Origin: an uncultured Erysipelotrichaceae bacterium
GTDB taxonomy: Bacteria > Bacillota_I > Bacilli_A > Erysipelotrichales > Erysipelotrichaceae
Length of the DNA stretch: 32,290 bases
Direction of reading: 5' to 3'
Assembly (NCBI GenBank): GCA_944326095.1
Contig: CALVCO010000014.1
Coordinates: 1 to 32,290 of the forward strand
The notes beneath the pieces were generated by a model that was given only the letters and a program-made list of their open reading frames with translations, was not told the origin of the DNA and did not search any database. Positions within the stretch are counted from its first letter, which is position 1. Every line of letters starts with the position of its first letter. Positions 4,988 to 20,731 of this stretch are shown here, one piece after another. The position numbers were made by a program, and so were the translations under genes.

Positions 4988-5017
4988 ATTATATAACTTT
5001 TTACAATAACTTGACAA
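4988..5017 (-). promoter_or_regulatory. Promoter of the lipoprotein gene
   Basis: On the minus strand TTGTCA (5012-5017) and TATAAT (4988-4993) are 18 bases apart. The -35 box is almost the same bases, read on the other strand, as the serS -35 box at 5011-5016, so the two promoters are back-to-back and may compete for polymerase. Confidence 0.6.
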
Positions 5018-5039
5018 ACTATTTTCTTTATTGTTTAAT
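5011..5039 (+). promoter_or_regulatory. Promoter of the serS T-box leader
   Basis: A consensus TTGACA at 5011-5016 and TTTAAT at 5034-5039 with 17 bases between. Transcription would start near 5046, just before the first T-box stem. Confidence 0.7.
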
Positions 5040-5185
5040 ATCAATGTTAAAGCGTTGAAGAGACTAAGTAAATCATGATATTTTAAAGAGAAATCATGGC
5101 TGGTGTGAATGATTAAATTAGTGATTGAAATCTATCTCGGAGTGAAAGATAAAACTTTCCGGTTACAGCCGTTATTGTTTGAGTG

Positions 5186-5215
5186 ATTATAATGTTTCAC
5201 GTGAAACATTATAAT
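5186..5215. promoter_or_regulatory. parS: parS site (ParB/Spo0J binding) within the T-box leader
   Basis: TGTTTCACGTGAAACA at 5193-5208 matches the 16-bp parS consensus of chromosomal ParB/Spo0J proteins exactly. Here the symmetry extends to 30 bp, flanked by ATTATAA on each side. ParB loads at parS to organise the origin region and recruit SMC. Being transcribed, the same bases also form the hairpin just before the T-box antiterminator. Confidence 0.9.
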
Positions 5216-5233
5216 AATTAGGGTGGCAACACG

Positions 5234-5264
5234 AGATATCGTCCCTTTGGGTGATATCTTTTTT
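5234..5264 (+). terminator. T-box attenuator terminator
   Basis: AGATATC-gt-CCC (5234-5245) pairs with GGG-t-GATATCT (5249-5259), followed by a T run. It is the alternative to the antiterminator formed by the T-box core, so it forms when tRNA-Ser is charged. Confidence 0.9.
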
Positions 5265-5282: not shown

Positions 5283-6569
5283 ATGTTAGATATTAAATTA
5301 GTAAGAGAAAATCCAGAATTAGTAAAAGAAAACATCAAGAAAAAATTTCAAGACGAAAAATTACCTTTAGTAGATGAAGTTATTGAACTTGACCAAAAGT
5401 ATCGTGCATCTAAAGCTCGTGGAGATGAATTACGTGCTATGCGCAATAAAGTCTCTAAAGAAATTGGTATGTATATGGGTAAAAAGATGTTAGCTGAAGC
5501 AGAAGAAGCTAAAAAGAAAGTAGCTGATATTGCAGATGAGTTAAAAGCTTTAGAAGAAAGTGAAAATACCCTTCAAGAAGAAATTAAACAAAGAATGTTA
5601 GTTATTCCAAATATCATTGATCCTTCAGTTCCAATTGGTAAAGATGACAGTGAAAATGTTGAAGTACAAAGATATGGTGAACCAAAGGTTCCTGCATATG
5701 AAATTCCTTATCATGCAGATATCATTAATTCTTTCAATGGCATGGATAAAGATGCTGCAGGAAGAACAAGTGGACAAGGTTTCTATTATTTATTAGGAGA
5801 TATTGCTAGATTACATGAAGCTATGTTAGCTTATGGTCGTGATTATATGATTGAGAAAGGTTTTACTTATGCTATTCCTCCATTCATGATTCACGCTAAT
5901 GTAGTTGAAGGAGTTATGTCTTTCCCAGAAATGGAAGCAATGATGTATAAAATTGAGGGTGAAGACTTATACTTAATTGGGACTAGTGAACATTCTATGA
6001 TCGGTAAATTTAAAGATCAAATTATCAAAAAAGAAGAATTACCAATTACTATGACTTCTTATTCTCCTTGCTTTAGAAAAGAAGGTGGATCTCATGGATT
6101 GGAAGAAAGAGGATTATATCGTGTTCATCAATTTGAAAAACAAGAGATGATTGTATTGTGTGAACCTGAACAATCTATGGATTGGTATGATAAAATGTGG
6201 CGTTATTCAGTTGAAATATTTACTAATATGAATATTCCTGTTCGTCAATTAGATTGTTGTTCAGGGGATCTTGCGGATTTAAAAGTTAAATCTTGTGATA
6301 TTGAAGCTTGGAGTCCTAGACAACAAAAATATTTTGAAGTATGTTCTTGTTCAAATTTAGGAGATGCACAAGCTAGAAGATTAGGAATAAGAGTTAAAGG
6401 TGAAAAAGGTAATTATTACTTGCATACTTTAAATAATACAGTAGTTGCTTCTCCTCGAGGCTTAATTGCTTTAATTGAAAATAATTATAATGAAGATGGA
6501 AGTATTGCTGTTCCTGAAGTGTTACGTCCTTATATGGGGGGTAAGGAAAAGTTAGTTCCTAAAAAATAA
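5283..6569 (+). CDS. serS: Serine--tRNA ligase
   Basis: SerRS charges tRNA-Ser (and tRNA-Sec) with serine in the cytoplasm. The 428-residue length is normal. Residues 1-110 form the long antiparallel coiled-coil arm, rich in Lys, Glu and Ala, that grips the tRNA. The catalytic class II core follows: TSEHSMIGKF near residues 235-245, the motif 2 region CFRKEGGSHGLEERGLYRVHQFEKQE (shown here only in name, residues about 263-288), and motif 3 near NNTVVASPRGLIALIENN (about 382-399). GGAGG sits 5 bases before the ATG. Expression is controlled by the T-box leader. parS sites lie on both sides of the gene. Confidence 0.97.
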   Translation: MLDIKLVRENPELVKENIKKKFQDEKLPLVDEVIELDQKYRASKARGDELRAMRNKVSKEIGMYMGKKMLAEAEEAKKKVADIADELKALEESENTLQEEIKQRMLVIPNIIDPSVPIGKDDSENVEVQRYGEPKVPAYEIPYHADIINSFNGMDKDAAGRTSGQGFYYLLGDIARLHEAMLAYGRDYMIEKGFTYAIPPFMIHANVVEGVMSFPEMEAMMYKIEGEDLYLIGTSEHSMIGKFKDQIIKKEELPITMTSYSPCFRKEGGSHGLEERGLYRVHQFEKQEMIVLCEPEQSMDWYDKMWRYSVEIFTNMNIPVRQLDCCSGDLADLKVKSCDIEAWSPRQQKYFEVCSCSNLGDAQARRLGIRVKGEKGNYYLHTLNNTVVASPRGLIALIENNYNEDGSIAVPEVLRPYMGGKEKLVPKK

Positions 6570-6585
6570 TGTTTCACGTGAAACA
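6570..6585. promoter_or_regulatory. parS: parS site directly after serS
   Basis: TGTTTCACGTGAAACA, an exact match to the chromosomal parS consensus, begins one base after the serS stop codon. Its centre is 1377 bp from the parS in the serS leader. Two exact 16-bp palindromes this close are not chance in AT-rich DNA. Confidence 0.9.
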
Positions 6586-6624: not shown

Positions 6625-6631
6625 ATTTATC

Positions 6632-6712
6632 GGTACAACAGACATGGATATAACTTGGTCAGGTCCGGAAGGAAGCAGCCACACAACCCTCTATCTGTGT
6701 GTACCTTTTTTT
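6632..6712 (+). ncRNA. ffs: Small bacterial SRP RNA (4.5S type)
   Basis: The conserved domain IV core GGTCAGGTCCGGAAGGAAGC (starting near 6658) is the Ffh-binding helix 8 of signal recognition particle RNA, with its GGAA tetraloop. GGTAC (6632-6636) pairs with GTACC (6701-6705) to close the hairpin, and a T run ends it. At about 80 bases it is the short form without an Alu domain. SRP RNA with Ffh directs membrane and secreted proteins to the translocon. It is followed immediately by tadA, a neighbourhood shared with other Firmicutes. Confidence 0.95.
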
Positions 6713-18874: not shown

Positions 18875-20731
18875 ATGGAAAATATGTATGATGTGATTGT
18901 CGTAGGCGGTGGTCATGCGGGAATAGAAGCTAGCTTGATTAGTGCACGATTACATAAAAAAACTTTATTGATTACTTTGAGTATTGAAAATATTGGGAAG
19001 ATGCCTTGTAATCCTTCTATTGGGGGACCGGCTAAGGGTATTGTGGTTAAGGAAATTGATGCCTTAGGAGGTCAAATGGGTATTACAGCAGACAAGACGG
19101 CTTTACAATTTAAGATGCTTAATACTACTAAAGGACCAGGAGTACAATGCTTAAGAGTACAATCAGATAAGCTTGCTTATAAAAAGATGATGCAAGAAGA
19201 AATATTAAAACAAGATAATTTAGATGTTTTAGAGGGAATTGCTCAAAGATGCATCATTGAAGATAATAAGATTTTAGGTATTGAGATGGATGGTGGTACT
19301 AAGGTTTATGGCAAGATTACCATTTTAACTACTGGTACTTATATGGCTAGTAATATTATGATTAGTGATGAAGTTACTAACTTTGGTCCGGATAATGAAC
19401 CTACAACTTTAAATTTATCTCAATCATTGCGAGATGCTGGTTTAAAGACTTTCCGTTTAAAGACGGGTACACCTCCAAGAGTATTAACATCATCAATTGA
19501 TTTTAGTAAAACTTCTTTACAACCAGGTACGGATGAATTTGTATGTTTTAGTGATACAACTACTAAAATTAGACCTTTTAATGAACAATTACCATGTTAT
19601 TTAACATATACCAATAGTAATACTCATAAGATTATTATGGACAATTTACATCGTTCTAGTATGTATTCGGGAGTAGTAAAAGGCGTAGGGCCTAGATATT
19701 GTCCTTCCATTGAAGATAAATTAGTAAGATTTAAAGATAAAGAAAGACATCAATTATTCTTAGAACCAGAAAGTGAAGCTTTAGATACTACTTATGTTCA
19801 AGGTTTTTCAACTTCTTTACCACGTGAAATTCAAGAGAAGATGGTACATAGTTTAGCAGGACTTGAAAATTGTATTATTAAAAAATATGCTTATGCGATT
19901 GAATATGATGCGATTGATCCTTTACAGATGAAACCTTCCTTAGAATCTAAAATAATTGAAAATTTATTTACGGCTGGACAAATCAATGGTACAAGTGGTT
20001 ATGAAGAGGCAGCAGGTCAAGGATTAATTGCCGGAATAAATGCTTGTTTAAAATTAGATGGTAAAGAGCCATTAATCTTATCTAGAGATGAAGCTTATAT
20101 TGGTGTTTTAATTGATGATTTAGTTACTAAGGGTACTAAGGAACCTTATCGTTTATTAACATCTAGAGCAGAATTCCGTTTGTTATTGCGTCATGATAAT
20201 GCTGATCAGCGCTTAATTGAAAAAGGATATAAAATAGGCACAATTTCTAAAGAGCGTTATGATGCTTATTGTTTAAAGATGCAAAAGATTAAGGATGCTA
20301 AAGAATTGTTGGCTAATACTAAAGTTAGTGCTAAGTCTAAGGGTAATGAATATTTAATTAGTCTAGGATATGATGGCTTAAATGATTCTATGAGTGCTTT
20401 AGATTTAGTTAAACGACCTTTAGTTAAAACTTATGAACTTGCTAAGGCAATGGAAATTGATATTGAAGAAAGAATTGCTAAACAAGTAGATATAGAAGTT
20501 AAATATGCTGGTTATATTGAAAAGGAAGCTAGAGAAGCTGCACGTTTACAAAAGATGGATAAGACCTTAATTCCTGAAGATATCGATTATGAACATATGG
20601 AAAACTTATCTTTAGAAGGTAAACAAAAATTAATGCAAGTTAGACCAAGAACTGTAGGTCAAGCTTCAAGAATTTCCGGAGTAAATCCTGCTGATATTGC
20701 GATTTTAGCAATGATGATAAAAAGAGGTTAA
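18875..20731 (+). CDS. mnmG: tRNA uridine-5-carboxymethylaminomethyl modification enzyme
   Basis: MnmG (GidA) is an FAD enzyme that, with MnmE, installs the cmnm5 group on wobble uridine 34 of several tRNAs. The 618-residue protein has the N-terminal Rossmann FAD motif GGGHAG (residues 11-16), the family signature GPGVQCLRVQSDK near residue 90, the NAD-binding region with TGTPPRVL, and the second signature AGQINGTSGYEEAAGQG near residue 370. The helical C-terminal MnmE-binding domain ends with VNPADIAIL. Here the gene is not beside mnmE or rsmG as in many bacteria, but in an operon with an EVE-like protein and an ArsC/Spx-like protein. Confidence 0.96.
   Translation: MENMYDVIVVGGGHAGIEASLISARLHKKTLLITLSIENIGKMPCNPSIGGPAKGIVVKEIDALGGQMGITADKTALQFKMLNTTKGPGVQCLRVQSDKLAYKKMMQEEILKQDNLDVLEGIAQRCIIEDNKILGIEMDGGTKVYGKITILTTGTYMASNIMISDEVTNFGPDNEPTTLNLSQSLRDAGLKTFRLKTGTPPRVLTSSIDFSKTSLQPGTDEFVCFSDTTTKIRPFNEQLPCYLTYTNSNTHKIIMDNLHRSSMYSGVVKGVGPRYCPSIEDKLVRFKDKERHQLFLEPESEALDTTYVQGFSTSLPREIQEKMVHSLAGLENCIIKKYAYAIEYDAIDPLQMKPSLESKIIENLFTAGQINGTSGYEEAAGQGLIAGINACLKLDGKEPLILSRDEAYIGVLIDDLVTKGTKEPYRLLTSRAEFRLLLRHDNADQRLIEKGYKIGTISKERYDAYCLKMQKIKDAKELLANTKVSAKSKGNEYLISLGYDGLNDSMSALDLVKRPLVKTYELAKAMEIDIEERIAKQVDIEVKYAGYIEKEAREAARLQKMDKTLIPEDIDYEHMENLSLEGKQKLMQVRPRTVGQASRISGVNPADIAILAMMIKRG

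Follow-up and report, generated by a model that had tools for sequence, protein, structure and literature searches.

A serine T-box in front of serS

The window, by which we mean the whole stretch of 32,290 nucleotides of gut-bacterial DNA analysed here, carries the seryl-tRNA synthetase gene serS on the forward strand at 5283-6569, recognised by TIGR00414 with 418.8 bits against a cut-off of 301.65. On the same strand the gene is preceded by a T-box leader RNA at 5046-5249, which matches the full Rfam model RF00230 from position 1 to 219 with 122.7 bits (gathering threshold 93). Alignment to the RF00230 consensus places the specifier triplet UCU at 5131-5133 (forward strand). It is a serine triplet and matches the downstream synthetase gene; relatives have either UCU or UCC in the corresponding position of their serS T-boxes. 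The antiterminator core GGGTGG is found at 5221-5226 (forward strand) both by sequence and by the RF00230 match, and it is followed on the same strand by an intrinsic terminator hairpin with a T run at 5233-5260, which has 12 pairs (mean in shuffled sequences 0.0) and would compete with the antiterminator. Judged by these features, the leader is a complete serine-specific T-box predicted to control serS.

Reading the sequence upstream, we find a probable sigma-A promoter on the forward strand at 5011-5039, with TTGACA as -35 element (5011-5016), a spacer of 17 nt and TTTAAT as -10 element (5034-5039). It ends just 5' of the T-box, and the predicted transcript start nearly coincides with the start of the leader. 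This TTGACA/TTTAAT pair is absent from the output of our promoter scan, which accepts only -10 hexamers whose second base is A.

Within the leader, positions 5186-5215 read ATTATAATGTTTCACGTGAAACATTATAAT, which is identical to its own reverse complement, that is, a perfect 30-bp palindrome. Centred in it, at 5193-5208, is the exact parS consensus TGTTTCACGTGAAACA, a 16-bp core that has no strand of its own and is a predicted loading site for ParB/Spo0J. In the alignment to RF00230 the columns of stem III are taken up by the palindrome, which lies 3' of the stem IIA/B motif and just 5' of AGGGTGG. When folded as forward-strand RNA it gives a 13-bp hairpin with the loop ACGU, at about -12.7 kcal/mol. 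The original prediction had proposed an exact 16-bp parS core inside a 30-bp perfect palindrome at this place, and had taken the palindrome for stem III of the T-box. The sequence agrees with the former, and the alignment to RF00230, the fold and the covariation of the flanking pairs in relatives (see below) agree with the latter.

parS sites and the par genes

The window contains two exact parS sites, while dinucleotide shuffles yield 0.11 matches even when three mismatches are allowed. The second site, which was overlooked in the original prediction, is an exact match at 6570-6585, again without strand, and begins at the base after the stop codon of serS. No further parS is found in the 1.61-Mb assembly at up to two mismatches, so that both sites of the genome lie at serS. 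Further, the serS T-box is the only one of the 15 T-boxes in the genome that contains a parS; in the others, as far as their core could be located, the stem III slot is filled by a hairpin that is unrelated in sequence. A parS 0-50 nt 3' of serS is also present in most relatives with the overlap. A small SRP RNA (RF00169) lies at 6629-6711, between the second parS and tadA, and it is likewise found 3' of serS in many relatives.

The genes for ParA, ParB and Noc are all found on a different contig, C8, where they have the customary arrangement rsmG-noc-parA-parB-mnmE. Noc scores 321 bits against an NCBIfam cut-off of 315 for its own family, while ParB scores above the cut-off of the ParB family and below that of Noc. 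The gene mnmG lies in the window at 18875-20731, separate from the mnmE-parB-parA-noc-rsmG cluster on C8; in Bacillus subtilis the two are close together. We considered the palindrome as a Noc site and rejected this, since the full NBS TTTCCCGGGAAA is absent from the genome. A phage origin of the region was also rejected, as there was no match among phage records.

The contig of the window stops short of dnaA, and the distance to the origin has to be judged from complete relatives. There the genes run dnaA-dnaN-recF-gyrB-gyrA-[parS in T-box]-serS, and 9.6-12.5 kb separate the parS from the start of the contig, which is near dnaA. By this comparison the parS of the window is predicted to be located near oriC, and the gene order indicates that parS is preferentially placed in the neighbourhood of gyrA and serS.

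Distribution of the overlap among relatives

Of the 316 genomes searched in the order, 104 contain a parS followed after 4-34 nt by GGGTGG, while a control with the reversed pattern finds none. We fetched 120 serS regions from about 60 genera, with sampling confined to the class of the window, and the order parS, T-box core, serS, parS is seen in them repeatedly. The overlap is present in 26 genus- or family-level groups from 8 families (18 genera in the family of the window, 2 in a sister family, and 6 other families), a count that overstates independence because of the kinship among the sequences. Outside these two families it is found in f7, f10, f13, f18, f24 and f25, further families of the class, in each of which the T-box is confirmed by Rfam. 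In every confirmed case serS is downstream. Two pattern matches, in G083 (L037) and G740 (L341), have no T-box and were set aside as chance matches. A search with the serS protein gave three informative contigs, all from the same genus; most of the other protein relatives have neither a T-box core nor a parS near serS by the patterns used.

Conservation across families argues that the overlap is not a chance insertion. The position within the leader is also restricted. Across the order, 104 serS T-box leaders were compared. The 69 parS sites that they have upstream of serS comprise 67 in stem III and 2 upstream of the T-box, with none elsewhere in the T-box. The original prediction had proposed that serS leaders of relatives be searched for joint conservation of parS and stem III. 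Such joint conservation holds in so far as the overlap recurs across families, but not universally, as 37 of the 104 leaders have a stem III that is unrelated to parS, a pattern in which the original prediction would have seen a chance insertion. The two functions are thus separable, and still the overlap is no accident. In two genomes, G023 and G311, a parS is located upstream of serS without any T-box.

To place the overlap on the history of the gene, we used a serS tree with 120 rows. The presence of parS in stem III needs 10 changes on this tree, against 39 when shuffled, and at least 4 of the changes are forced by well-supported branches. By the tree, the overlap is an inheritance of long standing, with gains or losses on several occasions.

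Some regions show additional arrangements. In f7 and f18 (L359-L361) an extra exact parS lies about 230-250 nt upstream of the one in stem III, just before the T-box, and a parS variant, TGTTCCACGTGAAACA, is found inside the serS coding sequence in g8, g37 and f10 (L200, L201, L252, L362-L365). In g8 (L200, L201) the leader with parS and T-box precedes a serS that is only 34-36% identical to the type in the window, which suggests either that serS was replaced under a kept leader or that the leader was rejoined to a replaced gene.

Constraint on RNA pairing and on the DNA core

We compared the bases on either side of the 16-bp core. At positions 9-12 from the centre, which are outside parS, 87.5% of the positions are paired in the T-box sites, compared with 55.8% after shuffling of partners (0 of 2000 shuffles reach the observed value). 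For parS sites elsewhere in these regions the corresponding figures are 53.8% and 50.6% (289 of 2000). Here the T-box sites are counted one per group and the other sites one per genus.

Compensatory changes were counted in an alignment of 26 rows, made up of 25 one-per-group segments and one g78 variant that replaces a duplicate. There are 41 cells where both sides have changed and are still paired, against 17.0 +/- 2.8 in shuffled alignments (0 of 500), and a control in which the partner is slid gives 4-12 cells. As the covariation of the flanking pairs exceeds both shuffles and slid controls, the stem III helix is, on this comparative evidence, selected as RNA.

The core shows a different kind of constraint. 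Among 77 T-box sites, 62 share exactly the same 16-mer, and since RNA pairing alone tolerates any sequence, such near-invariance indicates a constraint at the level of DNA. Further, core variants in the T-box site tend to co-occur with variants in nearby sites of the same genome (2x2 table 7/5/8/43, Fisher p = 0.005, with kinship ignored). In G001, for instance, both sites have the centre CACATG, and four species of g78 have TGTTCCACGTGGAACA in the T-box site and the same TTCC half in the second site.

A clade of four g32 species (L275-L278) has the centre TGTTTCACGGGAAACA in stem III, or its reverse complement in L276, with the RNA stem intact. This centre is half parS and half similar to a Noc site (NBS), and a canonical parS is found 3' of serS. 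The parS at stem III may have been lost in this clade, and the altered centre in a kept stem indicates that the hairpin can persist after a perfect parS is gone.

Discussion

The reading that we consider very probable is that the palindrome is a conserved dual-use element, serving both as a ParB loading site near oriC and as stem III of the T-box. Both ParB binding and T-box function at the palindrome are what we infer from the sequence comparisons. As DNA, it would be a chromosomal parS near oriC on which ParB presumably loads. As RNA, it is shown by homology and covariation to be stem III, a spacer hairpin between the stem II and IIA/B part and the antiterminator. That one stretch is both parS DNA and T-box stem III was also the claim of the original prediction, and it is strengthened by the joint conservation in 26 groups, where both constraints are evident.

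Why stem III should be the place can be understood from its tolerance. Stem III is poorly conserved, its truncation barely affects tRNA binding, and its role may lie in pausing; according to one proposal, the polymerase pauses at this stem for the T-box to fold (PMC6197855). A stem that needs a hairpin and tolerates nearly any sequence would be a suitable slot for a palindromic parS, and probably the only slot in a T-box where a palindromic DNA site could sit harmlessly. In turn, parS would be favoured in the stretch ahead of serS, which in complete relatives adjoins gyrA and lies about 10 kb from dnaA. The arrangement would then have been inherited with some gains or losses, and the second parS, at the end of serS, would bracket the gene.

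Could one of the two functions be sufficient? If the palindrome were stem III only, its likeness to parS would be due to chance or convergence and ParB would not use it. The slot does always contain a hairpin, and the other T-boxes of the genome carry other hairpins there. It is nevertheless extremely improbable that this is the whole explanation: the exact 16-mer is found in 26 groups although pairing alone would permit any sequence, the genome has just one parS besides this one, at the end of serS, and the reversed pattern is never found. The converse is that the palindrome is parS only, and that its length and the compensatory changes come from ParB contacts beyond the core or from palindrome-correcting mutation. 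Template switching can correct perfect palindromes, and all other parS sites, when pooled, show slight pairing beyond the core (56% against 47%). The extension is much stronger at the T-box sites (87.5% against 55.8%) than at the other parS of the same regions (53.8% against 50.6%), and this near-background pairing argues against both ParB contacts and correcting mutation. In addition, where a T-box lacks parS, its stem III slot is taken by an unrelated hairpin. We therefore regard a pure parS as very unlikely.

A further reading adds a coupling to the dual use. ParB at the stem III parS might repress or pause transcription of the serS leader, or transcription upon serine starvation might remove or reshape ParB, and thereby amino-acid status would be linked to origin segregation. 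There is precedent in Pseudomonas aeruginosa, where ParB at the intergenic sites parS3 and parS4 directly represses adjacent promoters, while the genes beside the intragenic parS1 and parS2 are not upregulated in parB or parS mutants (PMC5521831). The proposed pausing at stem III (PMC6197855) and the retention of the overlap over 8 families would also fit. Against this, the overlap is dispensable, as seen from the 37 of 104 serS T-boxes with another stem III, in some genomes a parS precedes serS with no T-box present, and slot-sharing accounts for the pattern without any coupling. We consider such a link rather doubtful. The specific proposal that ParB modulates transcription of the leader, or that T-box-controlled transcription sets the loading of ParB and SMC, so that the charging of seryl-tRNA is physically coupled to origin segregation, is in our view unlikely. 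As each function can exist without the other, coupling is possible and not needed for the pattern.

A dual-use element would mean that the same bases encode the centromere site of a bacterium and a helix of a riboswitch, that they are kept so over many genera, and that one sequence is under simultaneous selection for DNA binding and for RNA folding. It would provide a natural system for studying whether ParB acts on elongation through a leader and whether transcription through a parS acts on ParB loading. The overlap also predicts positions of parS in uncultured relatives. In the open-access literature we found no description of a parS that overlaps a T-box, a riboswitch or serS, in agreement with the original prediction, which knew of none.

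Comparison with known systems

The site resembles the chromosomal parS of ParABS systems (Spo0J/ParB) in its exact consensus, its predicted position near oriC, the low number of copies and the presence of genes for ParA and ParB. It differs from them in that it lies within a conserved structured RNA leader and has a pairing constraint that extends beyond the 16-bp core. The likeness to Noc and NBS consists of a noc gene adjoining parA and parB and of the half parS, half NBS-like centre of the g32 clade; the window site, in contrast, is a pure parS. With the T-box family RF00230 (stem I, stem II, stem IIA/B, stem III and antiterminator/terminator) the leader shares a complete match, a serine specifier, a terminator and serS downstream. 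Stem III is normally variable (PMC6197855), whereas here it holds a near-invariant site for a DNA-binding protein. The closest parallel on the regulatory side is with parS3 and parS4 of P. aeruginosa, which are also intergenic, near oriC and beside regulated genes. What is described for those sites is repression of promoters by ParB, with no overlap with a riboswitch (PMC5521831), whereas the parS of the window is embedded in the T-box itself.
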